Positions 1,820-40,540 of a stretch of DNA of 64,000 nt are shown piece after piece; position 1 is the stretch's first letter, and each line of letters starts with the position of its first letter. The notes below the pieces were generated by a model, which was given only the letters and a program-made list of their open reading frames with translations, searched no databases and was not told where the DNA came from. The position numbers and the translations under genes were made by a program. Where the stretch lies: the NCBI GenBank assembly GCA_028293125.1, contig JAQGPJ010000048.1, positions 1 through 64,000 of the forward strand, in the 5' to 3' direction. Origin of the DNA: Verrucomicrobiales bacterium (GTDB lineage Bacteria > Verrucomicrobiota > Verrucomicrobiia > Verrucomicrobiales > V1-33).

Positions 1820-3331
1820 TCACTTTTTGGGGTCGAGATTGGCCTTCATTTCCTCCTCCGTGGGCGTGCGGGACTGGATGCCCCCGGCGGGAATATCCGC
1901 CTTGGCGATCCAGGCGATGGCGTTGAGAGCTGTCATGCGGAACTGGTCGTTCTGCCAGTTTTTGTGGAAGTGCGCGCCGGTGAAGCCGAATCCGCGGCTG
2001 CCGTTGGCGTTGTCGGATACCCAGCACATGTGCTGGGCCTCGTGATTGTGCACTGCCTTGCGGACGTCGGGGTTTCCCTCATGGGGACCGTCCTTGCGGG
2101 TCAGGGTCGCCTCGGTGGGAACATCCGACAGGATGGGAGTCACGCCTTTCAGTCCCTCACGGAACCGCATGTGGTAATACCACTCGTCGTTGATTTTGAA
2201 GGGTTTCAGACCGGAGGCGACCGGATGCGCGGGGAAGTTTTTGTAGTCGGCCTCCCAGTGCGGGTTGACGGACCAGTTCTCCTCAAAGTAGCCGCCCATC
2301 CACTTCAGAAAATAATCACCCCCGGGGCCTTTGGGGATTTCGACCGCATAATGCAGGCTGCCGATGCCGCCGCCGCGTTCGTGGAATTTATCCACCTCCG
2401 CCAGATGCGGCACCACCATGTGGCCGCCGCCGCCGTCCGAATACATCACCAGGGCATCCGCGTTCACCAGCGCCGTGGGATCCTTTGGCCAGCCGCCGCT
2501 GTAAACCGTGGCATGGATTTTGCCGGCGCAGGACTCATTGAGGGAACGGGCCAGGAGCATGGAGCCGGCGCGATGCTCGTGATCACCGGGGCCGTGGCTG
2601 GGATTTCCTGCCACAAACACCACCTTTTTCACCCCCTCCATGGGCAGGCGCTTCAGTTTGATGTTCCGGAACTGCACCTTCATCGGCGGTCCGGCCACCA
2701 GCTGCAGCGCCAGCAGGCCGGAACGGCGCTTCATCTGGGTGTCCTCATCCGTGACCTCGGCGGTGAGCTGGCCGTTGATGTAGTTCTGAATGGTGAAGCC
2801 CTTGGCGACGATGCGGTATTCGTTCCAGTCCCCCTTGCGGACCGCGTTTTTCAGAGCCTCCTCGGAAGCGGTCTGCCCCAGCACGCGGGGCTTGTGGTCA
2901 TCACCGATCACATTTTTTTGCCCCCGGTCGGCCAGCAGGCCGCGGAAGTTCTCGCCGAACAGCGTGCCATTGCGCAGTTCCCCGTCCTCGATATCCGCCT
3001 GGTAGCCGCCGACGCCCCAGTTGCGGTCGGGCAGACGGAAGCTGCGGACCTGGATGCCGGAGTTGCCGCTTTCGATTTTATACTCCGCCGTCAGCTCGAA
3101 ATCATCCACCTCGCCCTGTCCCCAGATGAGGAAGGTGTTGCTCTCCGTCGCGGCCTCAGCGGTGGTCTGGCCGGTGATGGCACCGTTCTCCACCTTCCAG
3201 AAGCGGTTGTCGCCCTCCCAGCCATCAAGATTGGAGCCATTGAAAATCGGCACGGCATCCTGACTCCACGCCATGGACAGACTGGCTGCCAGCAGGAGAC
3301 AGGCGGAATGGAAAAGAGGGAGTCTGGACAT
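1820..3331 (-). CDS. Secreted DUF1080 (3-keto-disaccharide hydrolase)-ThuA fusion protein
   Basis: 503 residues from the ATG at 3331, chosen because a signal peptide follows at once (residues 1-23). The open frame continues upstream, but that part overlaps htrA in antisense and is not protein-like. Residues about 25-230 are a DUF1080/3-keto-disaccharide hydrolase domain (motifs FNGSNLDGWEG, SGNSGIQVRS, ING near residue 186). Residues about 235-495 are a ThuA-like domain (VVFVAGNPSHGPGDHEH; SDGGGGHM; HYAVEIP). ThuA proteins are tied to 3-keto-trehalose and related sugar metabolism. With the oxidoreductase downstream, the fusion plausibly cleaves and processes glycosides oxidised at C3. The fused order is unusual compared with separate genes. 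Confidence 0.88.
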   Translation of the reverse strand: MSRLPLFHSACLLLAASLSMAWSQDAVPIFNGSNLDGWEGDNRFWKVENGAITGQTTAEAATESNTFLIWGQGEVDDFELTAEYKIESGNSGIQVRSFRLPDRNWGVGGYQADIEDGELRNGTLFGENFRGLLADRGQKNVIGDDHKPRVLGQTASEEALKNAVRKGDWNEYRIVAKGFTIQNYINGQLTAEVTDEDTQMKRRSGLLALQLVAGPPMKVQFRNIKLKRLPMEGVKKVVFVAGNPSHGPGDHEHRAGSMLLARSLNESCAGKIHATVYSGGWPKDPTALVNADALVMYSDGGGGHMVVPHLAEVDKFHERGGGIGSLHYAVEIPKGPGGDYFLKWMGGYFEENWSVNPHWEADYKNFPAHPVASGLKPFKINDEWYYHMRFREGLKGVTPILSDVPTEATLTRKDGPHEGNPDVRKAVHNHEAQHMCWVSDNANGSRGFGFTGAHFHKNWQNDQFRMTALNAIAWIAKADIPAGGIQSRTPTEEEMKANLDPKK

Positions 3332-3529
3332 GGGAATAACGGCGTGAAACGATTGAAATACGGAGTCCTGGCTGGGCTTTATCACAGGAATGGGCTTCCC
3401 AACGCGGGGTCGCGCTTGGATTTTGACTGCACAAAACAGATGCCGGGGCACGCTCAAAAATTGAGCCGGCGGCGGATTCCGCATCCATACCGGCGACCCC
3501 CTCCGTTCCGCAACGCAAGTCATCCCACC

Positions 3530-5017
3530 ATGAACTGTCTCTCCCGCGCCCTGCTTCCTGTTCTTCTGCTGGCCGCCCCCGTTGCCGCTGTGCATGCGGA
3601 GGAGGTCATTGGCCCTTTCCGCAACAGTCTGACCGTGGACCGGACCCTCCTGGACCGGAATGCCCCCATGATGAAAAGCTACGCCGGCATGCTGGAGAAG
3701 GTGCAGCCGTCGGTGGTCACGGTCTTCACCGGTTTTCAAGCACCGGAGCGCCCGGCCCGCGTGAGCCAGGACGAGGCCGCCCTGCGCTTTTTCTTCGGTC
3801 TGCCCCCCGCCGCCCCGCAGCCGCGCCGGTCGGAATCCAAAAACAAGGACCGTTGGCAGCAGCTGGGGCTGGGCACCGGAGTCATCGTCACCAAGGACGG
3901 TTACATTCTCACCAACAAGCATGTGGTGATGCCGCCGGATCTGAACATCAATCCCGGCCTGCTGGAATACCGCGTCTCCATTCCCGGCAACGATCAGCCC
4001 CTGACGGCCAAAATCGTGGATTTCTCCTTCGACAAGGATATTGCGGTGCTGAAGGTCAGCGGCAGCGACCTTCCTGCGGCCACTCTGGCCGACAGTTCCC
4101 AGGTGAAGGTCGGTGATGTGGCCTTTGCGCTCGGCGCGCCTTTCGGCATCGATAAAACGGTGACCATGGGCATCATCAGCGCCAAACGGAATGACGAGGT
4201 GCTGAAGGGCATGGAGAAGCAGGAACTGCTGCAGACCGACGCCTCCATCAATCCCGGCAACTCCGGGGGCCCCTTGGTGGATGCCGAGGGCCGGGTCATC
4301 GGCATCAACACCGCCATCTACGCCAACCAGGGCGGGGGCAATATGGGCATTGGCTTCGCCATCCCCATCAACAACGCCGTCGCCGCCGCCGACGCCCTGT
4401 CGAGGCCGCGCGGCTATCTGGGGGTGGGACTCTCCCCCGTGACCAATCTCCAGGCCGCCGCCTACTATGGCCTCAAAGGCGGAGCCATCGTGGAGAATGT
4501 GGAGAAAGGCACTCCCGGAGCGCGTGCCGGCCTGCAGCCGCAGGATGTCATCTTCGCCATTGATGACCGCGAGATCGTGAACGACGATGAGCTGCGCCGG
4601 GAAATTTCCCAAGCCACCCCCGGCAAAACCGTCACCCTGCACATCATGCGGGATGAGACCAAAACCACCGTGCGTGTGACCCTGGGTGAGCGCCCCAACC
4701 GTTTCATCGAAAGCAAATCCGCCGAAACCGGCGCCTCTCTGGCAGGCATGAAGGTGGCCCCCCTCTCCGAGGAGGACCGCAAGCAGTACAAACTGGAGTC
4801 CGGTGGCCTGGTCGTCACCTCTGTCGAACCCAACACCCCCGCCGCCACCAGCGGCCTGCAGAACGGCGACATTATCGAACTTATCAACGGCCGCCAGCCC
4901 GCCACCGCCGCCGAGGCCATCGAGGCGCTCGGCACCAGCACCAATGGCTCCTCGGCCCTGCACATCCGCAGGGGCAGCGCCAAACGGTTGTTTTTACTGG
5001 ATACCCCCGGGAAGTGA
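3530..5017 (+). CDS. HtrA/Deg-type periplasmic serine protease with two PDZ domains
   Basis: 495 residues with a signal peptide ending near Ala23. The trypsin-like domain carries the triad H131 (LTNKHVV), D170 (DKDIAVLKV) and S245 (GNSGGPLV). Two PDZ domains follow at about 290-385 and 400-490. Family members degrade or refold damaged envelope proteins and are often induced by envelope stress. A low-complexity charged loop at about residues 85-107 precedes the core. The gene is divergent from the DUF1080-ThuA gene across about 200 bases that should hold both promoters. DegP and DegQ types cannot be told apart from sequence alone, so no symbol is given. Confidence 0.95.
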   Translation: MNCLSRALLPVLLLAAPVAAVHAEEVIGPFRNSLTVDRTLLDRNAPMMKSYAGMLEKVQPSVVTVFTGFQAPERPARVSQDEAALRFFFGLPPAAPQPRRSESKNKDRWQQLGLGTGVIVTKDGYILTNKHVVMPPDLNINPGLLEYRVSIPGNDQPLTAKIVDFSFDKDIAVLKVSGSDLPAATLADSSQVKVGDVAFALGAPFGIDKTVTMGIISAKRNDEVLKGMEKQELLQTDASINPGNSGGPLVDAEGRVIGINTAIYANQGGGNMGIGFAIPINNAVAAADALSRPRGYLGVGLSPVTNLQAAAYYGLKGGAIVENVEKGTPGARAGLQPQDVIFAIDDREIVNDDELRREISQATPGKTVTLHIMRDETKTTVRVTLGERPNRFIESKSAETGASLAGMKVAPLSEEDRKQYKLESGGLVVTSVEPNTPAATSGLQNGDIIELINGRQPATAAEAIEALGTSTNGSSALHIRRGSAKRLFLLDTPGK

Positions 5018-25265: not shown

Positions 25266-27746
25266 TTATGAGCACCCGACCGATTCCCATTGCGAACCGG
25301 GGAGGCAGCGGTGGAAGCTTTTTCCTTCATCCTCGATGGCGAAGAGCAGCAGCCAGCCGTGGTCCACGAGATGCCTCACATTTTCGTGCTTTGCCAGAAC
25401 CGCGGCGATGCGTTCGCGCGGGGCCTCAATAAAGACGTGCAGCCGGAGCGGTTCATGAATCCAGCGGGTGCCGTCGTGAACGGATTGCAGGGGCAGGCCG
25501 GTCTGGAGGTCGCCACTGTTTCCCTGACAAACGCTGATCGTGCCGACCACGTTGTGGGTGACTTTGTTCCCGCTGCCGAAGACCGGGTTGTTCACGGTGG
25601 AAGCGTAGTATTGCAGGTTGATCCAGTTCGCCACCACCATGGGCGCGGTCATGATGAGCTCGAGCGTGCTGTCACCGGGGTCGGCGCGGTGGTCGTAATT
25701 ATGCAGGAAGACGCGGCCTTCCAAGGAGACGGCGGCAGTCCGGGCACGGGGTGCGGCGATGAAGGCGGCATTGCCGGCGAGACCCCACTCCGGCCGGACC
25801 TCCGCCCAGTCAAGGCTCCGCGCGAGAACCCGCCGGTCCAGATCCGGTGCGGCAGGGTTGAGACCAAGCAAAGGGGCGCGCTCGCGGCGGGCGGCTTTCC
25901 CGGCGGTGATGAGCCAGCTTTGGAGTTGGTCGCGATCCTGCAGATGGCTGGCGGGCACATCGTCAAGGTCGAAAAGGGTAACTTCATCCGTCGTGGTGTT
26001 ATGCAGCCCGGCGAGAAAGTGCGTGTCATCGGGGATGAAAATGCCGTGGTCCCGCAGGGTCCGGCAGACAGCGGGGTCGTTGAGAATGGCGGCGGCCATG
26101 CGGGCATTGGCGTCACCAGCGTGTCCGCCACAGGCACCGCAGTCGAGGCCCGAGGCGTAAGGGTTGTTCGTGGTCGCGCTGCCATGGCCGCAAAGGAGCA
26201 CGAGTCGCGCGAAGTTTTTTGTCAGGCCCATGTGGCGCAGGACACCGAGCGCAAGGGCGGCACGATCCTCCAGAGCAATGCCGGTCAGGTCGGACGCCGA
26301 TTTTTCCAACTGGGGTCCATAAGCGTGATGATGATTGACGCCTTTCGCCGCTGGAGCGAAAGCGGCCCGGAACAGTTTCGCTCCGAAGGCGATCCCGGCG
26401 GTCTCGACAAAGGAAAAACAAGAGATGGCGGAGGTCTTGAAGGAGTTCCACGAGTAAGTGAGCCGCTTGGCAATCCGCTGACGCTTCCACGCTGTCTCCA
26501 CGGCTTCGGGGCTGGTTTTAAGAAGCATCTCGCGCACCCGGAATTTCGGCGTGAGCAACACGGGGCATTGCGCGGCCCCCGCATGCTGACCGAAGGGAAT
26601 ATATTCCATAGGAAGGCCGAAGAAACCGGCGAATCCGGCAGTCTCAATTTCCACAGTGGCCGCTTCGAGCGCGCGCCGGAAGATTTCGGAACGCACGTCG
26701 ATGCAGAACACCGCCTGCACGGCGGGCCGTATGCTGACAGGCGCGGGTTCGGGGGCACGCAATTTTCCGAGTAGCTGCCGTTGCCAGGCGTGCTCATGCG
26801 CGAGCTGCCAGAGGAAAGCCGGAAGCACTTCCTGGGATTGGGAGGACAGGGCGGCGGGTGATGGCGGCCAGAACCTGCGTAAATCAGGACCATCGAATTG
26901 CGCGAGCAGCGCTCCCTCGTAGGCCAGCCGGATGGCGAGCAGTTGCAGCAGGCTGTCATCACTCCGTCCGCTCATACTGTTTTCCCTGACGCGATACTGC
27001 ACGTAGCCGGCCCAGCCTCGGATACTCATGAACTGACGGTGGAGGAAATCAGCGGTATCCTCACCCTCAATGCCAAGCCGGCGCATCACGACGTTGATGG
27101 ACTCCCCGGCATTTTCCGGCAGATTCCTGACATACTGCCGGAATCCCAGCAGACCCAGCACTTCAGCATTGATATTGATCAATGCTTTTTCGCGCCACGC
27201 GGTGAAGAGCGGCAATGCCCGCCAGGGCAGACGCCAAGCTGATTGGCCCTGGTCAAAATACTCGGAACAAAACTGGGTGATGGTCTCGGTGACGGCTGCC
27301 GCCCATGAGGTTCCCCCCGCACGGTCCACCGCTTCGGCCACGGTCAGGATCTCATTTCCGGAAGTCACTGACGGGCTCGCGGTCAGGGACTGTTTCAGCT
27401 TCTCCACATCCATCATCGCAAGTGCCTCCGCCCATGGGCCGTGCAGCGTTTTGCGTCCCTCATTGAGCGCGGCTTCAAGATCCGGCTCAGAGATTTCTCC
27501 CGCCGCGAATTTCGCTTGGTAGTAAGCCAGCGGCATCTGCATGCCTCCTGGAGCCACCCGGCGGACGAGGTCGCAGGCGTCAATAAATGAACGGTCGCTG
27601 AATCCCAGGAAGGGATTCACGGCGACAAAGTTCTCCAACGGCCAGAGTGGGGCGATTCGCTGACAGGCGGCGTGGGCGGCAGCGAGGGCCGGGCCTGGGT
27701 TAATCGGGTGCACCGTGGCAGGAAGCGGGGATTCGGTAAGGTTCAT
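25266..27746 (-). CDS. dabA: DabA inorganic-carbon uptake subunit (DUF2309/UPF0753)
   Basis: 826 residues, the full length for the family. The putative zinc site of the beta-carbonic-anhydrase-like centre is complete: C348 and D350 (VFCIDVRSE), H521 (CGHGS) and C536 (GLDCGACGGHAGDANAR). These match the C351/D353/H524/C539 set known in Halothiobacillus DabA with a constant offset of three. DabA works with DabB at the membrane to convert CO2 to bicarbonate vectorially, driven by a cation gradient. The gene starts 25 bases after dabB, so the operon is dabB-dabA. Such operons occur in autotrophs and in heterotrophs that need bicarbonate for carboxylations. No RuBisCO or carboxysome genes are seen here. 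Confidence 0.94.
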   Translation of the reverse strand: MNLTESPLPATVHPINPGPALAAAHAACQRIAPLWPLENFVAVNPFLGFSDRSFIDACDLVRRVAPGGMQMPLAYYQAKFAAGEISEPDLEAALNEGRKTLHGPWAEALAMMDVEKLKQSLTASPSVTSGNEILTVAEAVDRAGGTSWAAAVTETITQFCSEYFDQGQSAWRLPWRALPLFTAWREKALININAEVLGLLGFRQYVRNLPENAGESINVVMRRLGIEGEDTADFLHRQFMSIRGWAGYVQYRVRENSMSGRSDDSLLQLLAIRLAYEGALLAQFDGPDLRRFWPPSPAALSSQSQEVLPAFLWQLAHEHAWQRQLLGKLRAPEPAPVSIRPAVQAVFCIDVRSEIFRRALEAATVEIETAGFAGFFGLPMEYIPFGQHAGAAQCPVLLTPKFRVREMLLKTSPEAVETAWKRQRIAKRLTYSWNSFKTSAISCFSFVETAGIAFGAKLFRAAFAPAAKGVNHHHAYGPQLEKSASDLTGIALEDRAALALGVLRHMGLTKNFARLVLLCGHGSATTNNPYASGLDCGACGGHAGDANARMAAAILNDPAVCRTLRDHGIFIPDDTHFLAGLHNTTTDEVTLFDLDDVPASHLQDRDQLQSWLITAGKAARRERAPLLGLNPAAPDLDRRVLARSLDWAEVRPEWGLAGNAAFIAAPRARTAAVSLEGRVFLHNYDHRADPGDSTLELIMTAPMVVANWINLQYYASTVNNPVFGSGNKVTHNVVGTISVCQGNSGDLQTGLPLQSVHDGTRWIHEPLRLHVFIEAPRERIAAVLAKHENVRHLVDHGWLLLFAIEDEGKSFHRCLPGSQWESVGCS

Positions 27747-27771
27747 GAGTGAGTGAGTGAAACTAAGCTAT

Positions 27772-29394
27772 TCATTTTCTTCCAGCGGCTTTGCTGAAGA
27801 CGGCAAGCGTCAGCCGGTTGGCGAGGGTGCCGAGATAAAATCCCTGCGAGGCATGCACATAAAATGAGCGGCCGAGGCGGGTGGCGGACCAGCCGGGGAG
27901 TTGCGCCTGCAGGATCAGCACGGCCATGAAAAGGAGGGTCACCAACGCCATGACGCCGTACTCGAGGGGCGAGCGCTCGGGATTGCAGGTCATAAGTGAA
28001 GAGGCGAGCAATTTGTCAAAGACGGCGTGAAGCGCAAAATATGCCGTGGCCGTCCCCGCGCCGACCAGCAGCCCCCATCCGGCCAGCGAGGCCCGGTGCG
28101 AGGAAGCCCACAGGTTCCATAGCAAATAGGCGAGCGCCATCATGAACACAGCGCCGAGCAGGAGCACGCCCCCGCCGCTTTTCAGGCTGAGCCCAAAGAG
28201 GGTGCCGATGACCAAGGTGAGCACCATGGCTGCGGCAAGTGTGCCGGCGAGGATGAGCGGATGCGCGGCCGGGCGTTCCGACGGCACCCAGGACGAGCGG
28301 CTCATGCTCACGATGCTGCCTGAAGTGAGAAAAGCGTGCGCCTTGTAAAGCGAGTGCGCTACGAGATGAAGCACAGCCAAGGCGAACGCACCGAGGCCGC
28401 ACTGCAGCATCATAAAGCCCATTTGCGCGATGGTTGAGTAGGCGAGCGAGCGTTTCACACTTGTCTGAGTGAGCATGATCATCGAAGCGAAGAGCGCGGT
28501 GAAAGCGCCCACGAGGGCAAGGGCATTCAACGCCGCCGGGGACCCGGCGATGATTGGGCTGAGCCGAACGACGAGAAAACCACCCGCGTTGATGATCCCT
28601 GCATGCATGAGCGCCGAGACGGGCGTCGGTGTTTCCATGGTGTCCGGCAGCCAGCTATGAAAAGGGAACTGCGCCGACTTCAGCAGCGCCCCCGCCACCA
28701 GCAGCACACTCAACCCGCTGAGCCACAGGGCGGAGTCGCCACCCTGAGCCCGGAGCCCCTCCGCCGCCGCGAACATCCCGGTGAATTTCCAAGTGCCGAA
28801 ACATTTCCAAGTCACGATAAGCGCGGCGGCCAGGCAGGCATCTCCCAGCCGGCTGATGAGAAATTTTTTCCTTGCTGCCAGCAGAGCTCCCGGGCGGTCC
28901 GGATAGAACATCAGCAATTGGTGCAGACTCATGCTGGTCGCCACCCATGCCAGCGTGAACATGAGCAGATTGCCCGAGATAATGAGCGTCAGCACGGACC
29001 CGGTTGTCACGCACAGCCACTTGATGAAACGGCCCTGCTGCGGGTCGCCTGCGAGGTAGTTCACGGAGTAGCGCAACACCACGGCACCGAGAAATGAGAC
29101 CAGCAGCAGCATGATGGCCGACAGAGTGTCGAAGTAAACATCGATTCCCACCGGCCCAGCCGTGATCACTTCCACTGCCAGCGGCCCGGCGGTGAGACGC
29201 CCCGCCATCGCCAGCATCCCCAACAGCAACACTGCAATCGCGGAGCGCGAGGCCAAGTCGGCAAAGCGCCGGCCATTGCGGTTGGCGAACTGGTCGGGGA
29301 TGAGCAGGAAAGCGATCAGCCACAACGGCCCAGCCACGACAGGGGCAAGTTGGAGCAAGGCATCAGGCAGAGGGATTGGCGGAGGATTCATCAT
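27772..29394 (-). CDS. dabB: DabB, NuoL-like membrane subunit of the DAB carbon pump
   Basis: 540 residues from the paired ATG at 29394/29391. Upstream codons to 29433 lack membrane-protein character and overlap the likely promoter. It is polytopic with a proton-antiporter module of the ND5/NuoL type (LKSAQFPFHSWLPDTMETPTPVSALMHAG is shared with complex I, quoted here only as its signature PFHSWLPD and PTPVSALMHAG). No other complex I subunit is nearby, and dabA follows directly, so this is DabB, not NuoL. It should couple cation flow to CO2 hydration by DabA. Confidence 0.92.
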   Translation of the reverse strand: MMNPPPIPLPDALLQLAPVVAGPLWLIAFLLIPDQFANRNGRRFADLASRSAIAVLLLGMLAMAGRLTAGPLAVEVITAGPVGIDVYFDTLSAIMLLLVSFLGAVVLRYSVNYLAGDPQQGRFIKWLCVTTGSVLTLIISGNLLMFTLAWVATSMSLHQLLMFYPDRPGALLAARKKFLISRLGDACLAAALIVTWKCFGTWKFTGMFAAAEGLRAQGGDSALWLSGLSVLLVAGALLKSAQFPFHSWLPDTMETPTPVSALMHAGIINAGGFLVVRLSPIIAGSPAALNALALVGAFTALFASMIMLTQTSVKRSLAYSTIAQMGFMMLQCGLGAFALAVLHLVAHSLYKAHAFLTSGSIVSMSRSSWVPSERPAAHPLILAGTLAAAMVLTLVIGTLFGLSLKSGGGVLLLGAVFMMALAYLLWNLWASSHRASLAGWGLLVGAGTATAYFALHAVFDKLLASSLMTCNPERSPLEYGVMALVTLLFMAVLILQAQLPGWSATRLGRSFYVHASQGFYLGTLANRLTLAVFSKAAGRK

Positions 29395-29467
29395 CGGAAA
29401 CAATCCTACCCCACTGGTTTGCGTTCGTTCCAATATACCTTTTGCTTTAAATCGTTCTGTTTAGTAG
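29395..29467. promoter_or_regulatory. Divergent dabB / lysR control region
   Basis: 73 bases separate the two divergent starts and must hold both promoters and the LysR-type operator. An AT-rich core with TATATT (minus strand) and a TTTAAA palindrome lies at about 29433-29452. This is the classic layout for a LysR protein that controls the divergent operon and itself. Confidence 0.55.
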
Positions 29468-30379
29468 ATGGATGCCATGGCATTTCTAAACTATCATCAC
29501 CTTCGCTATTTCCGGGCGATTGCCAGTGAGGGGAGCCTCACCCGCGCTGCCGCGCGGATGAACCTTTCGCAGTCGGCGCTAAGCACCCAGCTTAGGAGCC
29601 TGGAGGAAAACCTCGGCCAGCCCTTGTTCCTCAGGCAGAATAAAGCCTTGGTCCTGACCGAGGCCGGCCGCATCGCTCTCGACTACGCGGAATCGATTTT
29701 CCGTTCCGGCGAGGAAATGGTAAGTGTCCTCCGGAATCAATCCTCCGGACAGAGGCAAATCCTGCGGGTCGGCGGGGTCTCCACCCTCTCACGTAATTTC
29801 CAGATATCGCTCCTGCGTCCGCTGATTGGCCGCAGCGACGTGGAGTTGGTTATCCGGTCCGGCAATCTGCGCGACCTCCTGGCACAGCTCCGCGCCCACA
29901 CGCTGGACCTGATCCTATCCAATCTCCCGGTGCGCCGGGATGCCGAGACCGGCTGGCATAGCCACCTGCTGGATGAGCAGCCAGTGAGCCTCGTAGGCCA
30001 ACGCCCCCGTTCACGGAAAAAATTCCGCTTCCCCGAAGATCTGCATCACACTCCGTTGGTGCTGCCCAGTCTGGATAGCAACATCCGCGCCGCCTTTGAT
30101 CTGCTGATGGAACAGCTTGGCATCCGACCTGTCATCGCCGCCGAAGTGGATGACATGGCCATGCTCCGCCTTCTTGCCCTTGAGGGTGCGGGGCTGGCGT
30201 TGGTGCCGCCCGTGGTGGTGCGCGGTGAACTGGACAGTGGCGCTCTGGTCGAGATGCACCGCATCGAAGGCCTCCACGAGAGCTTCTACGCCATCACTCC
30301 GAGCAGGCAATTTCCCAATCCTTTGTTGGGTGAATTACTGAAGAAGCAAAAAGGCGCTTCGGGAATTGTCAAGAAGTAA
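29468..30379 (+). CDS. LysR-family regulator, likely of the dab operon
   Basis: 303 residues; an ATG at 29477 (MAFLNYHH) is an alternative start. The N-terminal winged HTH is clear (LNYHHLRYFRAIASEGSL then ARMNLSQSALSTQLRSLE). A LysR substrate-binding domain spans about 95-295. The LNYHHLRYF opening is typical of the NhaR-like branch. Divergence from dabB, with 73 bases between, suggests it senses carbon or ion status and controls dabBA. CbbR-like function is possible but unproven. Confidence 0.9.
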   Translation: MDAMAFLNYHHLRYFRAIASEGSLTRAAARMNLSQSALSTQLRSLEENLGQPLFLRQNKALVLTEAGRIALDYAESIFRSGEEMVSVLRNQSSGQRQILRVGGVSTLSRNFQISLLRPLIGRSDVELVIRSGNLRDLLAQLRAHTLDLILSNLPVRRDAETGWHSHLLDEQPVSLVGQRPRSRKKFRFPEDLHHTPLVLPSLDSNIRAAFDLLMEQLGIRPVIAAEVDDMAMLRLLALEGAGLALVPPVVVRGELDSGALVEMHRIEGLHESFYAITPSRQFPNPLLGELLKKQKGASGIVKK

Positions 30380-30949: not shown

Positions 30950-33900
30950 TTACGACATTTTGGCTTCCGGGTCTTCCGGCGGAGCATCCCTCGCGCAATA
31001 CAAATGAAGGGCATCCATGATGTGGGAAAAGTTGATGGGCTTGCCAAAATGCCTGTCAAAGCCACTGGCGAGGGAGCGCGCACGGTCGCCATCCTGCGCG
31101 TAGCCGGAGATGGCGATGAAAAGCGCATTGGAAAATTTTGTGTCCGCGCGCAGGATGCGCGCCAATTCATAGCCATCGAAACCGGGCAGGCCGATGTCGA
31201 GCAGCAGCACTTCAGGGAAGAATTCGCGGGCGGCGGTGAGACCGTTGGGGCCGGTGTGGGCGAGGACCACTTCGCAGCCGCGCAGCCGCAGCAAACGGGC
31301 GAGCGAGCGCGCAGCGTCCTCATGATCATCAACAATAAGAACGCGCACCTTTTTCGGCAGCGCAGCACTGGCTTTTGGTGGTGGGACGGAAGGACGGGTG
31401 GCGGCGGGCAGCTCCAGCAGCGGGAGACGCACCGTGACAGTCGCCCCGGCGTGAGCCCCGGCGCTTTCTATTGTGACCCGGCCACGGTGCAGCTCAACAA
31501 GCGACTTAACCACTTTCAGCCCGATCCCGAGTCCACCGAGCGAGCGGTCGAGCGAGCGTTGAGCCTGGCGGAAGAGATCGAAAACATGCGGCAGGAGGTC
31601 AGCGTCGATGCCAACGCCGTTGTCCACGATTGTAATCACTGCGTGGCAGTCCTCCATCCTGGCGCGCATCGAGATCCGGCCCCCCTCGGGAGTATATTTG
31701 GAAGCGTTGTTCAGCAGGTTCACGATAACCTGTTCCAACCGCGCGGAGTCTCCGGTGACTTGCATCCCCGTGGCTATGTCGGTGGTAAAAGTTTGTTGCC
31801 GCTGCAGCATGAGCGGCTGGACAACCGCGGTTGCCCGTTCCAGCACCGTGGCGATGTCAAGGTTTTCCGGGCGCAGCTCGATGCGGCCGCGGCTGATCCG
31901 CGCCACGTCAAGCAGGTCATCCACCATCCGCGAGAGCTGCTGGCTCTGGCGGTCGATCACTTGCGCAGACCACTGCGAGGCTTCCAGACTTTCGGGAGTA
32001 TCGTGGGCGATCTGCACGGCGTGCCGAATGGCATTAAGCGGGTTGCGCAGCTCGTGACCGAGCATGGCGAGGAATTCGTCCTTGCGCTGCCCTTCCTCGA
32101 GGATGGCGCGTTCCGCGTTCTTCCGGGCAGTCACATCCCGGATCGTGCCAATGATGCGAAGATCTCCTCCGAGCCCGGCAGGTTCCGGTCTGCCCGCAAA
32201 CTCAACCCACCGCACCTCGCCATCGGGCCGCAAAATACGGCACTCAAAAAGAAACTGCTCCTGTGCCTGAACCGTGCGCGCGACGGCCCCCTCGAACGCA
32301 CTGCGGTCCCCGGGATGGAGAAACCTTGTGACAAAGCCGTCGGCGGTGACTGGCGGAGATGATGGATCAATGCCTAAAATCCGGTAGGGATACTCATTTT
32401 CCCAGATGACGACATCCTTTTCGGGCAGCCACGACCAGATGCCAATGCGAGCCGCCTCGCTCGCCAGAAGGACCCGCTTCTGACTCTGTCTGCGCGCCTC
32501 CTCGGCCTGTTTCCGGGAGGTAATCTCAATTGCGGCACAGGTAACCCCCGAGACCATGCCCGCGTGATCCCGTAGCGGTTCCACCAGCAGGTCATAATAC
32601 CGGTCCAAGCCCTGAATGTGAATCATTACTTCCTGCCCTACGCCGGCCCCGGTGCGTATCACTTCCCGTTTCAGGCGCTCCGTCACCGCCGCGTCCTCCG
32701 CGCGCTCCATCAGGTCCGCATCGCGTTTGCCAATCAGGTCTGAATTGTCAAAACCGAGCCACTGGTTATGATTCCAAGTGTAGCGCAGTTCAAGGTCCTG
32801 CTGAAAAAGCACCACCTGCGAGCATTTCACGGCGAGATCAAAGCGCTCATTCGTGAGCCGCAGCCTCGCCTCCGACTCCCGGCGCTCCGTGATGTCCTCC
32901 ACCACAGCACCAAAGCCGACAATTTTCCCTGCCTCGTCGTTCACAGGGTACCAGCTCTCGGACCAGTAACGGGTCACTCCGGTTGCCAGCGGCGTTTCTC
33001 CGCTGAACTCGTGGCCGCGCACCGCATCGCCGGTGGCGAGGATGTGCTCCGCGATTTTGCGTGCCGGGGTCTCCAGCGCCGGCACAATTTCGCCCACCGT
33101 GCGCCCGATGTGAGCCTCGATGGAGAGCCCGTTCATTGCGGCCAACTGCTCGTTGACGCGCACGAAACGCAGATTGCGGTCGAAATAGGCAAATCCTACG
33201 GGAGCCCGCGAGAGAAGAGTATCCAGCAGACGCAGTGCCTGTTCCTTTTCCTCCTCGGCAACCCTGCGGGCGGAGATGTCCACAAAAGCGGCTACCCCGC
33301 CGCGTATAGAGCCCTGCTCATCCATGAGGGGCACCGCATGGCCCACCGCCCGCACCCGGCGGCCGTCGGTAAATTGAAAATCGAGCACGGCATCACGCAC
33401 AACCTCGCCAGTTGCAGTGACGCGCTGGAGCGGCAGCTCAGGTGTGGGGTATTCCGTGCCGTCTTCCTTGAAATACTGTAAACAGGGAGCTTCTCCGGCA
33501 GCCGCCCCCGACTGGGAGACGTTCGCCTCCGCCTCAACCCCCATTAATTCATTGGCCATCCGGTTGCCGATGATAACCCGGCACTCTGCATCCCGGCTGA
33601 TCCAAACAAAGGCCGGAAGCGCATCAAGCAGGGCCTCCAGTTCATTGGTGCGCACGCGAAGCGCTGCCTCGGCCTGCTTCCTCTCCGCTATTTCCTCCCT
33701 CAATTGGAGATTTACCTTGGCCACACTGGGCAAGGCGAGCGCGGCTGGGAGGACGTTGATCAGCTGAATCACCGTCGCCCAGGATACCACCGCTGTTACC
33801 GCTTTCAGCAAACCTGAGAGCCGGTACCAGGGACGCCAGAAAATGGTGGCTTCGATCAGATGACTGGCTCCGCACGAGACGATGAAGATGGCGAAGAGCC

Positions 33901-34096
33901 AGAAGAGCGGAACAAATGGCATATCCTTCCGAAAGCGGATAAAAAACGCCAGCACCATGGGGATGGCGGCGTAGGCACCAAAAATGGCGATATCAGAGAT
34001 AATGTGCAGCCAGCCATGTGCGTCCGACCATTGCCCGCATTGCCAGCGGGGAAAAAACCCGTCGGTATCAAGAAGGTGCTGAAAGAAGGATATCAC
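30950..34096 (-). CDS. Hybrid histidine kinase with ethylene-receptor-like membrane sensor and PAS domains
   Basis: 1048 residues from a GTG at 34096; no ATG lies before residue 47, so GTG is needed to keep the first helix. Three N-terminal helices (about 28-53, 62-84, 93-118) match the ethylene-binding domain: D35, Y42, C75 and H79 in SDIAIFGAY and SCGASHLIEA equal ETR1 D25, Y32, C65 and H69 with one constant offset of ten. Four PAS-type segments follow (about 150-275, 285-403, 410-528, 540-658). Next come the HisKA site H681 (GHELRNPLNAIRH), the ATPase N box at N797, G boxes at 825-829 and 854-860, and a receiver with D923/D924, phospho-acceptor D967, S997 and K1019. No separate response regulator is adjacent. 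Confidence 0.92.
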   Translation of the reverse strand: MISFFQHLLDTDGFFPRWQCGQWSDAHGWLHIISDIAIFGAYAAIPMVLAFFIRFRKDMPFVPLFWLFAIFIVSCGASHLIEATIFWRPWYRLSGLLKAVTAVVSWATVIQLINVLPAALALPSVAKVNLQLREEIAERKQAEAALRVRTNELEALLDALPAFVWISRDAECRVIIGNRMANELMGVEAEANVSQSGAAAGEAPCLQYFKEDGTEYPTPELPLQRVTATGEVVRDAVLDFQFTDGRRVRAVGHAVPLMDEQGSIRGGVAAFVDISARRVAEEEKEQALRLLDTLLSRAPVGFAYFDRNLRFVRVNEQLAAMNGLSIEAHIGRTVGEIVPALETPARKIAEHILATGDAVRGHEFSGETPLATGVTRYWSESWYPVNDEAGKIVGFGAVVEDITERRESEARLRLTNERFDLAVKCSQVVLFQQDLELRYTWNHNQWLGFDNSDLIGKRDADLMERAEDAAVTERLKREVIRTGAGVGQEVMIHIQGLDRYYDLLVEPLRDHAGMVSGVTCAAIEITSRKQAEEARRQSQKRVLLASEAARIGIWSWLPEKDVVIWENEYPYRILGIDPSSPPVTADGFVTRFLHPGDRSAFEGAVARTVQAQEQFLFECRILRPDGEVRWVEFAGRPEPAGLGGDLRIIGTIRDVTARKNAERAILEEGQRKDEFLAMLGHELRNPLNAIRHAVQIAHDTPESLEASQWSAQVIDRQSQQLSRMVDDLLDVARISRGRIELRPENLDIATVLERATAVVQPLMLQRQQTFTTDIATGMQVTGDSARLEQVIVNLLNNASKYTPEGGRISMRARMEDCHAVITIVDNGVGIDADLLPHVFDLFRQAQRSLDRSLGGLGIGLKVVKSLVELHRGRVTIESAGAHAGATVTVRLPLLELPAATRPSVPPPKASAALPKKVRVLIVDDHEDAARSLARLLRLRGCEVVLAHTGPNGLTAAREFFPEVLLLDIGLPGFDGYELARILRADTKFSNALFIAISGYAQDGDRARSLASGFDRHFGKPINFSHIMDALHLYCARDAPPEDPEAKMS

Positions 34097-34537
34097 GGTT
34101 AAGAATGTCTTAAATTAAAACAAGTGCGCACGATTTCGATCATTCGGAGGGGAACCTTCCGGTCTCCCTGCAAACGGACTGGACAGGCTGACCCCCGCAA
34201 CCCAAAACTCACTGAAGATCATTTTCTGACCTCTGCTGCAAGCCACAAAGGGCCGCGACTCCCGGAGCGTTTTGTTCAAAAATACTTAAACGCAATTTAA
34301 GAAACCAGTGAATCCAGCGCCGGCACGGCCGGCGGTCCGTAAACGGCAAAAACGCCTCCGCCCGGCAGCGCAAAGCCCGGACGCCCACGCCAAGCCTCGA
34401 ATTATCTGGATTGCCAACATAACAAAATCGAATTAATGCTTGGTAAAATCCGCGCATCGGATTTTATGGAAAGACCGGGCGGAATTTTTGTGTCGCCCAG
34501 CGGAAGCATGATAGAGTGCGGGGCAACCTTCCGCATT
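34097..34537. other. 441-base region upstream of the A2M gene
   Basis: No gene seen. It separates two divergent genes, so it should hold the promoter of the hybrid kinase (minus strand) and of the macroglobulin gene. One sigma-70-like site is listed at 34411-34439. Confidence 0.45.
34411..34439 (+). promoter_or_regulatory. Candidate promoter of the A2M gene
   Basis: TTGCCA (34411-34416), a 17-base spacer, then TAATGC (34434-34439), in a locally AT-rich stretch. The A2M start codon is about 100 bases further on. Confidence 0.35.
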
Positions 34538-37500
34538 ATGAAAACTCTTTTCCGTCGCCGGGACCTCCCGGCTTTGTGGTGTGGGCTGGGCCTGATGATG
34601 GTCCTCAACCCGGGTTCCGGCACGGCTGTGGCTGCCCCGGAAAAACCCGCCGCCAGACCGGCGACCGCTGCGGCACCTGCTGCAGCTTCCCCATCGGGGG
34701 TCAAGGCAGCACCGGACAGTCCGGCGGTCCAAGCGCAGATCGTGGTGCCGGAGGGCAGGCTGGGACGTGGATCCGCAATTGAAGTGCGGTTTCCCGGGCC
34801 GATGGCCGAAGCTGCACTGACCGGGAAGGAGGTGCCTGCGGAATCGGTGCTGGAGATCAAACCGGCCCTGCCGGGGCGCTTCCGCTGGCAGAGCACGCGG
34901 AGCGGCAGCCTGGAGCTGGGAACGCTGCTGCCGCCGGGGCAGAATTACCGCATCACCCTCAAAGCCGGGCTGAAGGATACTCAGGGCCGTCCCGTGACGG
35001 CTCCGGTGGCCACGGCGGCCACCCCGGATTTCACCATGCGGGAAAGCACGCCGCGATGGTTTTATCCGGCTTCGGAAACCACGCTGCAGCCGGAGATGAC
35101 ACTCTATTTCAACGACGCGGTGAGCGCCGCCGAAGTGGCCAAAGCGGGGGCCTTCTCCGATAAGGAGGGACGCCGGATCCCGGTGACGGCGGCCAGGCCG
35201 GATGTCAGCGCCCTGGGGCGGAATCCCCCCGCCTACGGCACTTGGGAGCAGCAGCAGAAAAAGCAGAGCGGGGAGAAGGAGGGTGAAGACTCCTCCGGGG
35301 ACGAGGACCGGCCCGCCGCTCCCCCGAGGGCGGAATCCATCGACCCGCCAAAGGCGGAACTGGTGGAGTCCGATACCAACGGCCTGCCGGTTTCCGTGGT
35401 CCGGGTAAAGCCGGCCTCCCCCCTGCCCCCGGGACAGGACTGGGCTTTCATCCTGCCCAAGGGAATTCCCAATCAGTCCGGCAAGGCCAGGACCGCGGCC
35501 CCGGTGCGGATTGTCTATGGCACCGTGACCGCCTTTCAACTGGCCAAAATCACGGCGGTGCCGATGCTGGACGAGGACAGCGAGATCCAGTTCAGCTTCA
35601 ATAAAAAGCTTTCGGAATCGGACACTGGCAAGGTGCCGCCCGGCATCCGCATTTCTCCGGCCCCGGAAAATCTGACTTGGACGGTCTCCGGCCAGATGGT
35701 CACCGCCAAGGGCGCCTTCCTGCACGGGACCGCCTACACGGCGCAGGTGGATCCGGGACTGCCGGCGGCCGATGGCATGACCTTGGAGCGCGGACGGGAG
35801 GAAACTCTGAAATTCGCGGCGCACGAGCCTCAGCTTGCTCTGCCCGCGTTCGACCACGCCCAATGGCTGGGCGGCAAGGGGGGGTTCGCCTTCAGCAGCG
35901 CGAATCTGAAAAAGGCCTCCGTGAAAATCAAGAAGGCCGATGCCGGCAGCGTCATTTACCTGCTCAACGGCTATGCAACCTACGAGTCGGACAGCGACCA
36001 TCCGGACGCTACTGGCCATACCCGGCTGCCTTGGTCCGTGGTGCCCGGAAAAACCGTTTGGGAGAAGGAGTTCGCCTCTCAGGCGGAGCTGAACCACAGC
36101 GAGCGCTCGGGCTTCACCTGGGATGAGGCTGGCGGCGGCAAGCGCCAGCCGGGGATTTATTTCATCAGCATCGAGGGCCAGCCCCGCAAGGAGGTGGACA
36201 GCACCCAGGTGCTGGGCGCGCAGTCCGTCGTGCAGCTGTCGGACATCGGGCTGGTGTGGAAATATGCGGGTGCCAAGGCGATGATCTACGCGTTTTCCCA
36301 CACCTCAGGCCAGCCGCTGCCGGGAGCCACACTGCGCAGCTACACACAGGACAATGAACTGTCCGAAACCGTCACCACCGGTGCGGACGGCATGGCCAAA
36401 ATGGCCTTCGGCAAGGCCCGTTGGCTGATCGCCCAGGCCGGGGAGGATCTGCGCGGGGTGCAGTTCAACGGCGACGCCACGGAGCTGAACCGCTGGGCGT
36501 TTGATCTGCCCGTGGATGATGCCGAGTCCAACACCGCCCCGTCGCGGGAGATGATGATCTTCACGGAACGCCCCGTGTACCAGCCGGGGGAGACCTTCTT
36601 TTTCAAGGCCATCACCCGCCTGCACCAGTCGGTGACCCTGAGCATTCCCGCGGAGAAAAAGGCCAAACTGTTTCTTTTCGATCCCCAGAACCGGACCGTC
36701 CTGAACCGGGACATCGAGTTCTCGGACACCGGCTCGTTTTCCGAGGGCCTGCGGCTCCCCGAGCAAGGCTTGGGCTGGTACCGGCTGCGCATCGAGTTTC
36801 CCCCTCCGCCCAAACCTGCCCCCGCCGCCGGCACTGCTCCGACGGCAGCGGCGGACAACAGTGACGAAAACGTGGAGGAAGGCGGCAACAACGGCGAGGG
36901 AGAGGAGGAAGCGGAGAACGGTGAGCCGCAGCCCCAGCGGTTCGAGCAAATGCTGCTGGTGCAGGAGTACCAGCCCAACGCCTTCCGCATCACCTTCGAT
37001 GACGCCGCCGCCAAACTGTCAGGGGAGACGCTCTCCGTGCCGGTGCGCGCGGCCTATCTGATGGGCAAGGCGCTTGACGGATCGGAGATGAAGTGGACCG
37101 CCAACCTGTCCCAAGCCCCCTTCCGGCCCGACGGATATGAGGACTACCGGTTCTGCAACGCCCGGTCTTATTATGTCTGGGACGGCAGCCAGTATCAGTC
37201 CATGAAGGAGGAAGCCGCCCTCCAGCCTCTGATGACCGGCCAAGGGACCGTGAAGCTCTCCCCCAAAGGCGAAACCCTGCTGGAGGCCAAAGTGCCGGCG
37301 ACGTTCGGCGTGCCCGGTCCCAAGCTGATCGCTATCAATGCCGAAATCACGGATCTGAACCAGCAGACCATCGCCGAGGGCTGGCAGCACACGGAACACA
37401 CATCGGATTTTTACCTTGGCGTGAGAAGGCCGGCGAATGCCGTGAACGCCGGCACGGAGGTCCCGCTGTCCCTGGTGGCGGTGGACGCCCAGGGAGGCCG

Positions 37501-40500
37501 CCGCAAAACCGCCGTCCCGGTAAAGGTTAAAATTGAACGGCTGGCCTGGAACGCGGTGCGTGTGCAGACCGCCGGTGGAGGCACGGATGTGAGGAATGAC
37601 CTCACCTTTGTACCGGTCGGCGATGAGGAGCTGACCGTTCAGCCTGAACTCGGCCGGGAGGAGGCCTGGACCTTCAAACCGCAGGCTGCCGGCACCCATA
37701 ATCTGACCTTCACCGCCGCGGACAGCAGCGGACGGGAGGTGCGCACGGTGGTCAGCATCGATGTGTTTTCCCCGCAGGAGCAGGTGTGGCGTCAAAATGA
37801 CGGAGTGAAGGTGGAGCTGCTGGCGGACAAGGACCGCTACAAGCCCGGCGACACAGCGAAGGTGGTGGTGAAGTCCCCCTTCAGTGGCACGGCCCTGGTG
37901 ACAGTGGAGCGCGACCGCGTGCTGCGCTCGGAATTGAAAAAAGTGGAATCCGGCGGAGCCATTGAGCTGAAGGTGGAGGACAGCTGGGCTCCCAACGTTT
38001 TTGTCTCCGTGCTGCAGGTGCGCGGCGGGGCGGATGATCCCCGCGCCCATCCGGAGCCGGACTACCGCGTGGGTTACTGCTCCCTCAATGTTGAAAGCGA
38101 GCGGGACCTTCTCAAGATCGATTTGACGCCCGCGCAATCCGAGGTGCGGCCCGGAGCCATGGTGGAGGTCGCAGCCACCGTGCGCGACGCCGCCGGCAAT
38201 CCGGTGCCGGAGGCGGAACTGGCGCTTTGGGCGGTGGACGAGGGCATCCTCAGCCTCATGCCTTGGGAAGTGCCCGATCCCGCAGGAACTTTCCAGTATG
38301 ACAGCCCGCTCGCCGTGCGCACCGGCATTTCCCTGCAGCGGCTGCTGCCGGAGGATCCGGAGAAGCTGGACTTTATGAACAAGGGTTTTGTGATCGGCGG
38401 CGGTGGCGATCTGGAAGGCACGGGCAAGGTGATGCGCCAAAACTTCAAACCCACCGCCTACTGGCACGGCATGCTGCGCACCGGCACCGACGGCGTGGTC
38501 AGGGTCAGCTTCCCGGCCCCGGACAACCTCACGGAATTCCGTCTGGCCGCCGTGGCCAACGAGGGCGTGTCCCGCTTCGGCAAGGCGGAGGGCCGGTTCA
38601 AAGTGAACCAGCCCCTGATGCTGGAGCCCGCCCTGCCCCGCTTCGCCAATGCCGGTGATGAAATCACCCTCAAGGCCGTGCTGCACAACACCACGGAGAA
38701 GGAGGGCGAGATAGCCGTGGAGCTGACCGGCGACGCGCATATCCAGATTCTGGATCCCGCCACCCGCAAGCCACTTCAGGAAAGCAAGGCGGTCCGCACC
38801 GTGCATCTGGCGCCCCAGCAGTCGAAGGCTGTCCCCTTCGCCGTCAGATTCACCGCCGACGGCCCGCTGGCTCTGCAATGGAAAGCCTCCTGCGCCACGG
38901 AGCCCCTGCTGGGCGACAGTGTGGAGTCGAAGTTCGCCGTGGGCATCGCCGAGCCGCTGATCCGCGATGTGCGGTTCGCCTCCCTGGCCAACACCCTCGG
39001 CGGCGCGAATCTGCTGGAGAAGGTCTCCCCGGAACTGCTGGAAGGTGATGGACAGGTGACGGTCACACTGGCCAATTCCCGACTGCTGGAGGGCGCGGAG
39101 GCGGTGGAGCAGCTGCTGCACTATCCCTATGGCTGCGCGGAGCAGACCATGTCCTCCATGCTGCCGTGGCTGACGCTGCGCGATCTGAAGCAGGTGCTGC
39201 CGGCGCTGAACCACCCGGATCAGGAAATCGCCAATGTGATCCAAAAGGGTTGCGACCGTCTCCTCTCCATGCAGACGGCCTCCGGCGGACTGGGCTACTG
39301 GCCGAAGGATGCGGAGCCTATCCTGTGGGCCAGCGCCCACGGAGCTCTTGGCCTCACCCTGGCCTCCCGGTCCGGAGCCCAGGTGCCGGCGGACCGGCTG
39401 GAAAAACTGACCCAGTGGCTGTCCCAGTCCCTGCGTGACACCGCGTCTGTCAAAAATTCATGGGACCTGACCGAGCGCGCCTACGCCGCCTATGCCCTGG
39501 CCTTGGCGGGCAAATCGGAGCCGGGCTACCACGAAGTGCTCTTCAACCAGCGCCAAAACCTCTCCCCGGACGCCTTGGCCCTGCTGGCCTTGGCCGTGGC
39601 TGAGAGCGGGGGGCCGGCGGAGATGGCCAAAACGGCCATCACGGAGTCCCGCAATAAAAAGGCGGACCTCTGGTGGGGAAGCCAGAGCACCGAGGCCATG
39701 CGCGCGATGGCGCTCCTGAAACTGAAGGATCCCTCCGCCGACGAGGCCATGGGACGCCTGATGAATGCCCGCAGCCCGCGCGGCGACTGGAGCCATACTT
39801 TCGCCAACTCCTGGGCGCTTCTCGCTCTGAGTCAGGAGGCGCGCATGACACCGGCGCTGAAGGAAGGTCAGACCTGCACCCTGAGCCTGAATGGCAAATC
39901 ACAGGAAATCACGCTGCCGGGAACGCCGGCCTCCCAAACGGTGACTCTCAGCTGGAAAGCCGGTGCGGAACTGCCGGTGCTGACCGCCAAAATGCCCTCC
40001 GGGCAGCGTCTGTTCGCCAAAATGGAAACCGTCCGCCGGGCTCCCGCCGGGGAGCAGCGGGCCCGCTCCTCCGGATTTGGCATCACCCGCAGCTGGCGGA
40101 AGGTCGCTCCCGACGGCAGGCTTTCGGAGCCCGGAGCCCTGCGCACCGGGGATCTGGTGCAGGTCACCCTGAAGCTGGACATTCCGGAGGGGGGTGAATA
40201 CCTGTCCATTGATGATCCTTTGCCGGCCACATTCGAGGCCGTGAACTCCAATTTCACCTCCATGGTGTCCGGGACTGTGGCCCGCTCCGAAGCCGCCCTG
40301 CCCACCTGGTTCTCGGACTACACGGAAATGCGCCGCGACCGGGTGCTGTTCTTCCGGAATTACTTTTCGGAAAAGGGCCGCTATCAGGTCAACTACCTCG
40401 CCCGCGTCATCGCCGAGGGCACTGTCATGGTACCGGCCGCGAAGATCGAGTTGATGTACGATCCCGCCCGCTTCGGCCTTTCCCCTTCCCAGAAGCTGAC

Positions 40501-40540
40501 CACGGAGGCAGCTGCGGATGGATCGGTGGCCGGGAGGTGA
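34538..40540 (+). CDS. Bacterial alpha-2-macroglobulin with thioester
   Basis: 2000 residues from the ATG at 34538, where a signal peptide of about 31 residues begins (basic MKTLFRRR, then a hydrophobic core). An Ala/Pro-rich linker follows. The A2M_N/MG-type domain opens at FTERPVYQPGETFFFKA (about 672), and the A2M family block GTDGVVRVSFPAPDNLTEFRLAAVA lies near 1315. The thioester CAEQ is intact (C1533-Q1536, in YGCAEQTMSSMLPWL), followed by the helical thioester domain and receptor-type domains. Bacterial A2Ms trap proteases in the periplasm and covalently bind them. An acidic low-complexity insert occurs near 770-800. The usual partner penicillin-binding protein PbpC is not adjacent, so this is a stand-alone gene. 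Confidence 0.93.
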   Translation: MKTLFRRRDLPALWCGLGLMMVLNPGSGTAVAAPEKPAARPATAAAPAAASPSGVKAAPDSPAVQAQIVVPEGRLGRGSAIEVRFPGPMAEAALTGKEVPAESVLEIKPALPGRFRWQSTRSGSLELGTLLPPGQNYRITLKAGLKDTQGRPVTAPVATAATPDFTMRESTPRWFYPASETTLQPEMTLYFNDAVSAAEVAKAGAFSDKEGRRIPVTAARPDVSALGRNPPAYGTWEQQQKKQSGEKEGEDSSGDEDRPAAPPRAESIDPPKAELVESDTNGLPVSVVRVKPASPLPPGQDWAFILPKGIPNQSGKARTAAPVRIVYGTVTAFQLAKITAVPMLDEDSEIQFSFNKKLSESDTGKVPPGIRISPAPENLTWTVSGQMVTAKGAFLHGTAYTAQVDPGLPAADGMTLERGREETLKFAAHEPQLALPAFDHAQWLGGKGGFAFSSANLKKASVKIKKADAGSVIYLLNGYATYESDSDHPDATGHTRLPWSVVPGKTVWEKEFASQAELNHSERSGFTWDEAGGGKRQPGIYFISIEGQPRKEVDSTQVLGAQSVVQLSDIGLVWKYAGAKAMIYAFSHTSGQPLPGATLRSYTQDNELSETVTTGADGMAKMAFGKARWLIAQAGEDLRGVQFNGDATELNRWAFDLPVDDAESNTAPSREMMIFTERPVYQPGETFFFKAITRLHQSVTLSIPAEKKAKLFLFDPQNRTVLNRDIEFSDTGSFSEGLRLPEQGLGWYRLRIEFPPPPKPAPAAGTAPTAAADNSDENVEEGGNNGEGEEEAENGEPQPQRFEQMLLVQEYQPNAFRITFDDAAAKLSGETLSVPVRAAYLMGKALDGSEMKWTANLSQAPFRPDGYEDYRFCNARSYYVWDGSQYQSMKEEAALQPLMTGQGTVKLSPKGETLLEAKVPATFGVPGPKLIAINAEITDLNQQTIAEGWQHTEHTSDFYLGVRRPANAVNAGTEVPLSLVAVDAQGGRRKTAVPVKVKIERLAWNAVRVQTAGGGTDVRNDLTFVPVGDEELTVQPELGREEAWTFKPQAAGTHNLTFTAADSSGREVRTVVSIDVFSPQEQVWRQNDGVKVELLADKDRYKPGDTAKVVVKSPFSGTALVTVERDRVLRSELKKVESGGAIELKVEDSWAPNVFVSVLQVRGGADDPRAHPEPDYRVGYCSLNVESERDLLKIDLTPAQSEVRPGAMVEVAATVRDAAGNPVPEAELALWAVDEGILSLMPWEVPDPAGTFQYDSPLAVRTGISLQRLLPEDPEKLDFMNKGFVIGGGGDLEGTGKVMRQNFKPTAYWHGMLRTGTDGVVRVSFPAPDNLTEFRLAAVANEGVSRFGKAEGRFKVNQPLMLEPALPRFANAGDEITLKAVLHNTTEKEGEIAVELTGDAHIQILDPATRKPLQESKAVRTVHLAPQQSKAVPFAVRFTADGPLALQWKASCATEPLLGDSVESKFAVGIAEPLIRDVRFASLANTLGGANLLEKVSPELLEGDGQVTVTLANSRLLEGAEAVEQLLHYPYGCAEQTMSSMLPWLTLRDLKQVLPALNHPDQEIANVIQKGCDRLLSMQTASGGLGYWPKDAEPILWASAHGALGLTLASRSGAQVPADRLEKLTQWLSQSLRDTASVKNSWDLTERAYAAYALALAGKSEPGYHEVLFNQRQNLSPDALALLALAVAESGGPAEMAKTAITESRNKKADLWWGSQSTEAMRAMALLKLKDPSADEAMGRLMNARSPRGDWSHTFANSWALLALSQEARMTPALKEGQTCTLSLNGKSQEITLPGTPASQTVTLSWKAGAELPVLTAKMPSGQRLFAKMETVRRAPAGEQRARSSGFGITRSWRKVAPDGRLSEPGALRTGDLVQVTLKLDIPEGGEYLSIDDPLPATFEAVNSNFTSMVSGTVARSEAALPTWFSDYTEMRRDRVLFFRNYFSEKGRYQVNYLARVIAEGTVMVPAAKIELMYDPARFGLSPSQKLTTEAAADGSVAGR

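Follow-up and report, generated by a model that had tools for sequence, protein, structure and literature searches.

A multi-PAS hybrid histidine kinase with a probable ethylene-receptor sensor domain in a Verrucomicrobiales bacterium

A 64,000-nucleotide stretch of contig JAQGPJ010000048.1 from a Verrucomicrobiales bacterium (the window) carries a sensor kinase gene whose product begins like the plant ethylene receptor ETR1 and whose neighbour is a dab operon for inorganic-carbon uptake. This arrangement raises two questions: whether the kinase is an ethylene receptor, and whether its place beside a CO2 pump says anything about its role. Our analysis indicates that the protein is quite probably a bacterial ethylene receptor akin to ETR1, SynEtr1 and AzoEtr1, with a multi-PAS hybrid histidine kinase attached to the sensor, and that the adjoining dab operon is most likely unrelated to it.

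The gene is an intact open reading frame on the minus strand (30950-34096) that encodes 1048 amino acids from a GTG start with no internal stops, and this start is supported by its agreement with the start of most relatives. Pfam matches divide the product, all on the minus strand, into an N-terminal ETR1_N three-helix ethylene-receptor domain (aa 27-122; 33731..34018), four PAS domains, a HisKA dimerisation and phosphoacceptor domain (aa 672-736; 31889..32083), a HATPase_c catalytic domain (aa 782-893; 31418..31753) and a receiver domain (aa 919-1030; 31007..31342). The PAS count was obtained by scanning the stretches between sensor and kinase singly: all four match a PAS model, the first weakly (aa 157-278; 33263..33628; PAS_4, 2.4e-5), followed by aa 296-407 (32876..33211; PAS_4, 4e-18), aa 428-530 (32507..32815; PAS_4, 1.8e-9) and aa 571-652 (32141..32386; PAS_3, 1.5e-10). 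Motif inspection located a predicted phosphoacceptor histidine, H681, within GHELRNP of the HisKA domain, the N, G1 and G2 boxes of the catalytic domain, and, in the receiver, a predicted phosphoacceptor aspartate, D967, with the acid pair D923/D924 and K1019. With HisKA, HATPase and receiver domains present and the catalytic motifs intact, the protein is predicted to be a hybrid histidine kinase, and both the four PAS segments and the receiver described in the initial annotation are borne out. Plant ETR1 contains a GAF domain and no PAS domain. In the window protein, Pfam gave no GAF match behind the membrane domain, where the four PAS domains lie instead; judged by the GAF domain, it is not a plant-type ethylene receptor.

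The sensor domain was assigned by profile comparison. The ETR1_N model (PF25487) matched the full protein at aa 27-122 with an E-value of 5.3e-32 and 110.4 bits, against a cut-off of 27, and the isolated sensor domain with 115.6 bits. ETR1_N was the sole Pfam family found on the isolated domain at E-values up to 10, with no MHYT or 7TM model among the matches, so that the search for a better-matching non-ethylene sensor produced no competitor. The model matched one protein in the source genome and none in 14 control genomes. Three hydrophobic stretches were found in the domain, as expected of three transmembrane helices; a single-sequence AlphaFold model of low confidence (mean pLDDT 62.9) makes three long helices plausible, and a PDB sequence search with the domain returned no match up to E 10.

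The seven residues on which ethylene binding by ETR1 depends (D25, Y32, I35, P36, I62, C65 and H69) all have counterparts in the window protein, namely D35, Y42, I45, P46, I72, C75 and H79, and in helix 3 K98 and S105 correspond to ETR1 K91 and S98. The lysine of helix 3 is linked with receptor output. We take Y32 to be essential for ethylene binding, and the ETR1 reference sequence in the alignment to be correctly numbered. ETR1 positions D25, C65, H69 and K91 agree with PMC11819568 and positions I35, P36, I62 and S98 with PMC6586836, and all the essential binding residues except Y32 are named in one or other of these papers. Across 48 aligned sequences (47 loci and ETR1), D25, I35, C65, H69 and S98 were invariant and K91 was retained in 47/48. 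The initial annotation had placed D35, Y42, C75 and H79 opposite their ETR1 equivalents with a constant offset of ten: the four residues lie where it put them, with the D, C and H columns invariant across the 48 sequences, and the offset of ten applies to helices 1 and 2 but becomes seven in helix 3, after a three-residue loop difference. Its reading of the first ~125 residues as an ethylene-receptor domain is strongly supported by the profile, the residues, the relatives and a numbering shared with AzoEtr1.

The source genome's place in the Verrucomicrobiota agrees with the presence in it of the Verru_Chthon_A family, and the way its relatives group suits the order Verrucomicrobiales. Phylogenetic analysis of the 48 domains placed the window domain in a 30-row group composed entirely of Verrucomicrobiota, with support of 100/95 and a stem of 0.52. 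Nearly all 30 rows carry the motif RWxCGxW ahead of helix 1; AzoEtr1 and the other bacterial domains, those of cyanobacteria included, have PHxxC there; one row of the alignment (L070) has neither pattern, and the copper-site residues are common to both groups. The RWxCGxW clade is well supported and, on the sequences sampled so far, verrucomicrobial. Our literature search found no member of this clade with tested ethylene binding and nothing relevant on verrucomicrobial ethylene receptors.

ETR1_N exceeded the cut-off in 40/387 genomes of the order and in 20/289 genomes of the phylum sample. The outputs behind the domain vary, comprising a kinase with receiver, a kinase without receiver, PAS domains only and a short sensor-only protein, and the four-PAS window protein was the longest among those scanned. 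PAS number is freely variable among kinases of this type. One genome of the order (G050) encodes three ETR1_N proteins (L051, L052 and L053), of which L051 has PAS domains and no kinase domain was found in it. A search of 72,556 plasmids returned only relatives below 60% identity, and a genome-contig scan only a distant kinase match. The initial annotation rightly stated that ethylene receptors occur in bacteria, where homologues with varied output domains have been described; for the same reason, and with about one in ten genomes of the order carrying ETR1_N, its description of this find as unusual does not hold.

Related domains were also observed on putatively viral contigs. Among two IMG/VR contigs of 80 and 245 kb (L095 and L096), L096 encodes at 2983-4116 a 377-aa kinase with ETR1_N, HisKA and HATPase domains, in which the seven binding residues and the lysine are conserved, next to a dCMP deaminase-like gene. 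Since a match to the terminase large subunit also lies on the 245-kb contig, an ethylene-receptor-like kinase may be encoded by a large phage. A 162-aa open frame (L098, in stretch L104 of contig G641) contains little beyond an ETR1_N-like domain, keeps the copper ligands and has Ser in place of the helix 3 Lys; phage tail-fibre and virion-structural matches lie near it, and the contig has a terminase match. Three further IMG/VR domains (L097, L100 and L101) are divergent: Cys and His are kept, but the Asp is replaced by Asn or Gly and the helix 3 Lys is missing; in L100, the domain is followed by what by eye looks like PAS-like and EAL-like sequence.

The well-supported split of the RWxCGxW clade from canonical domains of bacteria and plants, its long stem and the replacement of the outer PHxxC motif are what would be expected if the copper site had been kept while specificity changed, the natural ligand being some other Cu(I)-binding molecule, such as acetylene, CO or a different olefin, or copper itself. 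We consider this unlikely, since the window protein keeps every residue tested as ethylene-essential in ETR1 and most of the differences fall within the outer N-terminal segment and the helix flanks. It is correspondingly unlikely that the clade forms a distinct sensor subfamily with a retained Cu(I) site and a changed ligand or signal read-out, which would be a bacterial copper-gas sensor outside the plant, cyanobacterial and proteobacterial branch. The four PAS domains, together with the wide variation in output behind the sensor domain among relatives, could also fit an N-terminal domain that is now merely a membrane anchor, sensing being left to the PAS domains; this is very improbable, because an anchor would not need the binding residues, which hardly vary across the phylum as sampled. 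Ethylene perception by the N-terminal domain remains the preferred reading.

The initial annotation had further regarded the position beside a CO2 pump as meaningful, and a sensor that regulates the neighbouring dab operon, or is co-regulated with it, would tie ethylene to CO2 supply. The two are indeed adjacent: a genuine dabA-dabB operon with a divergent lysR (lysR-dabB-dabA, 25266-30379) adjoins the kinase, and lysR (29468-30379, plus strand) converges with the kinase gene, as the annotation had noted, across a gap of 570 bases. On the other side, window positions 34436-40540 encode a 2034-aa bacterial alpha-2-macroglobulin-like protein, divergent to the kinase. Convergence means that kinase and lysR share no promoter, and the operon has its own conserved LysR: the divergent lysR-dabB-dabA arrangement was kept at 13/13 other dab loci in the order, with LysR 62-81% identical, while none of the fetched stretches around these 13 loci held a relative of the window kinase. 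Conversely, no dab or lysR match was found around 12 other ETR1_N loci of the order (0/12, mostly 8-9 kb on each side), or on a short same-genus contig that ends inside the gene and is uninformative on that side. In 15 other sampled genomes with both genes, these lie on different contigs, a class limited by fragmented assemblies, or at least ~230 kb apart, the distance being ~230 kb to 3 Mb in G019, G051 and G374. Co-occurrence of ETR1_N and DabA in the order did exceed expectation (16/40 vs 71/347, Fisher p 0.0085), but this excess carries no weight because it ignores genome size and ancestry. No RuBisCO large subunit was found in the source genome, and RuBisCO-based autotrophy was rejected as the context; it is more likely that the dab operon provides bicarbonate for other metabolism. 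The kinase was likewise rejected as a component of the dab operon. The adjacency is a one-off neighbourhood whose link is not conserved, its proposed meaning is not upheld, and a regulatory tie between ethylene and CO2 supply is extremely unlikely.

What the analysis yields directly is the domain order, the conserved residues and the intact kinase motifs; the working model that follows is one we infer. By close analogy with AzoEtr1, Cu(I)-dependent ethylene sensing is most likely the function of the hybrid kinase. Three membrane helices would form the sensor. By analogy with ETR1 it would dimerise, with C75 and H79 of each subunit binding one Cu(I), and published ETR1 modelling suggests that D35 would set the position of H79 and also pair with K98. 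Ethylene bound to the copper would alter autophosphorylation of H681, probably lowering it, as ethylene is reported to lower the kinase activity of ETR1 (PMC11819568). The signal would travel from helix 3 along the chain of PAS domains to H681; these four domains probably serve as extra inputs or as signal relay. No response regulator gene adjoins the kinase, unlike the case of AzoEtr1, and the source genome has at least three Hpt matches elsewhere; phosphate would presumably pass from H681 to D967, then to an Hpt-containing protein of the genome and on to an unlinked regulator.

The window protein adds to the bacterial homologues of ethylene receptors already known, whose output domains vary. 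Should it bind ethylene, tested perception would reach a further bacterial phylum beyond plants, cyanobacteria and Azospirillum, and its clade would offer a natural set for examining residues outside the copper site that set affinity and signal direction. Adjacency to the CO2 pump is unfit as evidence of the kinase's function.

Among known receptors, AzoEtr1 of Azospirillum brasilense is a close parallel: its first 130 residues bound ethylene when expressed in yeast, and its disruption removed most ethylene binding from cells (PMC11819568). It shares D35, C75, H79 and K98 with the window protein under identical numbers (PMC11819568), and alignment with the A. brasilense Sp7 plasmid copy puts these residues in the same columns. 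The two are ~38% identical over the sensor domain and both have PAS and histidine kinase domains behind it, but AzoEtr1 is 525 aa long with one PAS domain, no receiver, a response regulator encoded next door and the canonical PHxxC outer motif. SynEtr1 (slr1212) of Synechocystis, likened here by description, is another ethylene receptor from a bacterium, and its histidine kinase signals through a phosphorelay (PMC11819568); it is additionally a light receptor and has its own response regulator. Arabidopsis ETR1 shares the three-helix ethylene domain, the seven essential residues, the kinase and the receiver, but signals mainly through a Ser/Thr kinase and has the disulfide cysteines C4 and C6. 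Within the phylum, verrucomicrobial ETR1_N kinases such as L055, L057 and L059 belong to the same RWxCGxW clade and follow the same ETR1_N-PAS-HisKA-HATPase-receiver order, with one PAS domain detected, against four in the window protein, and other gene neighbourhoods.
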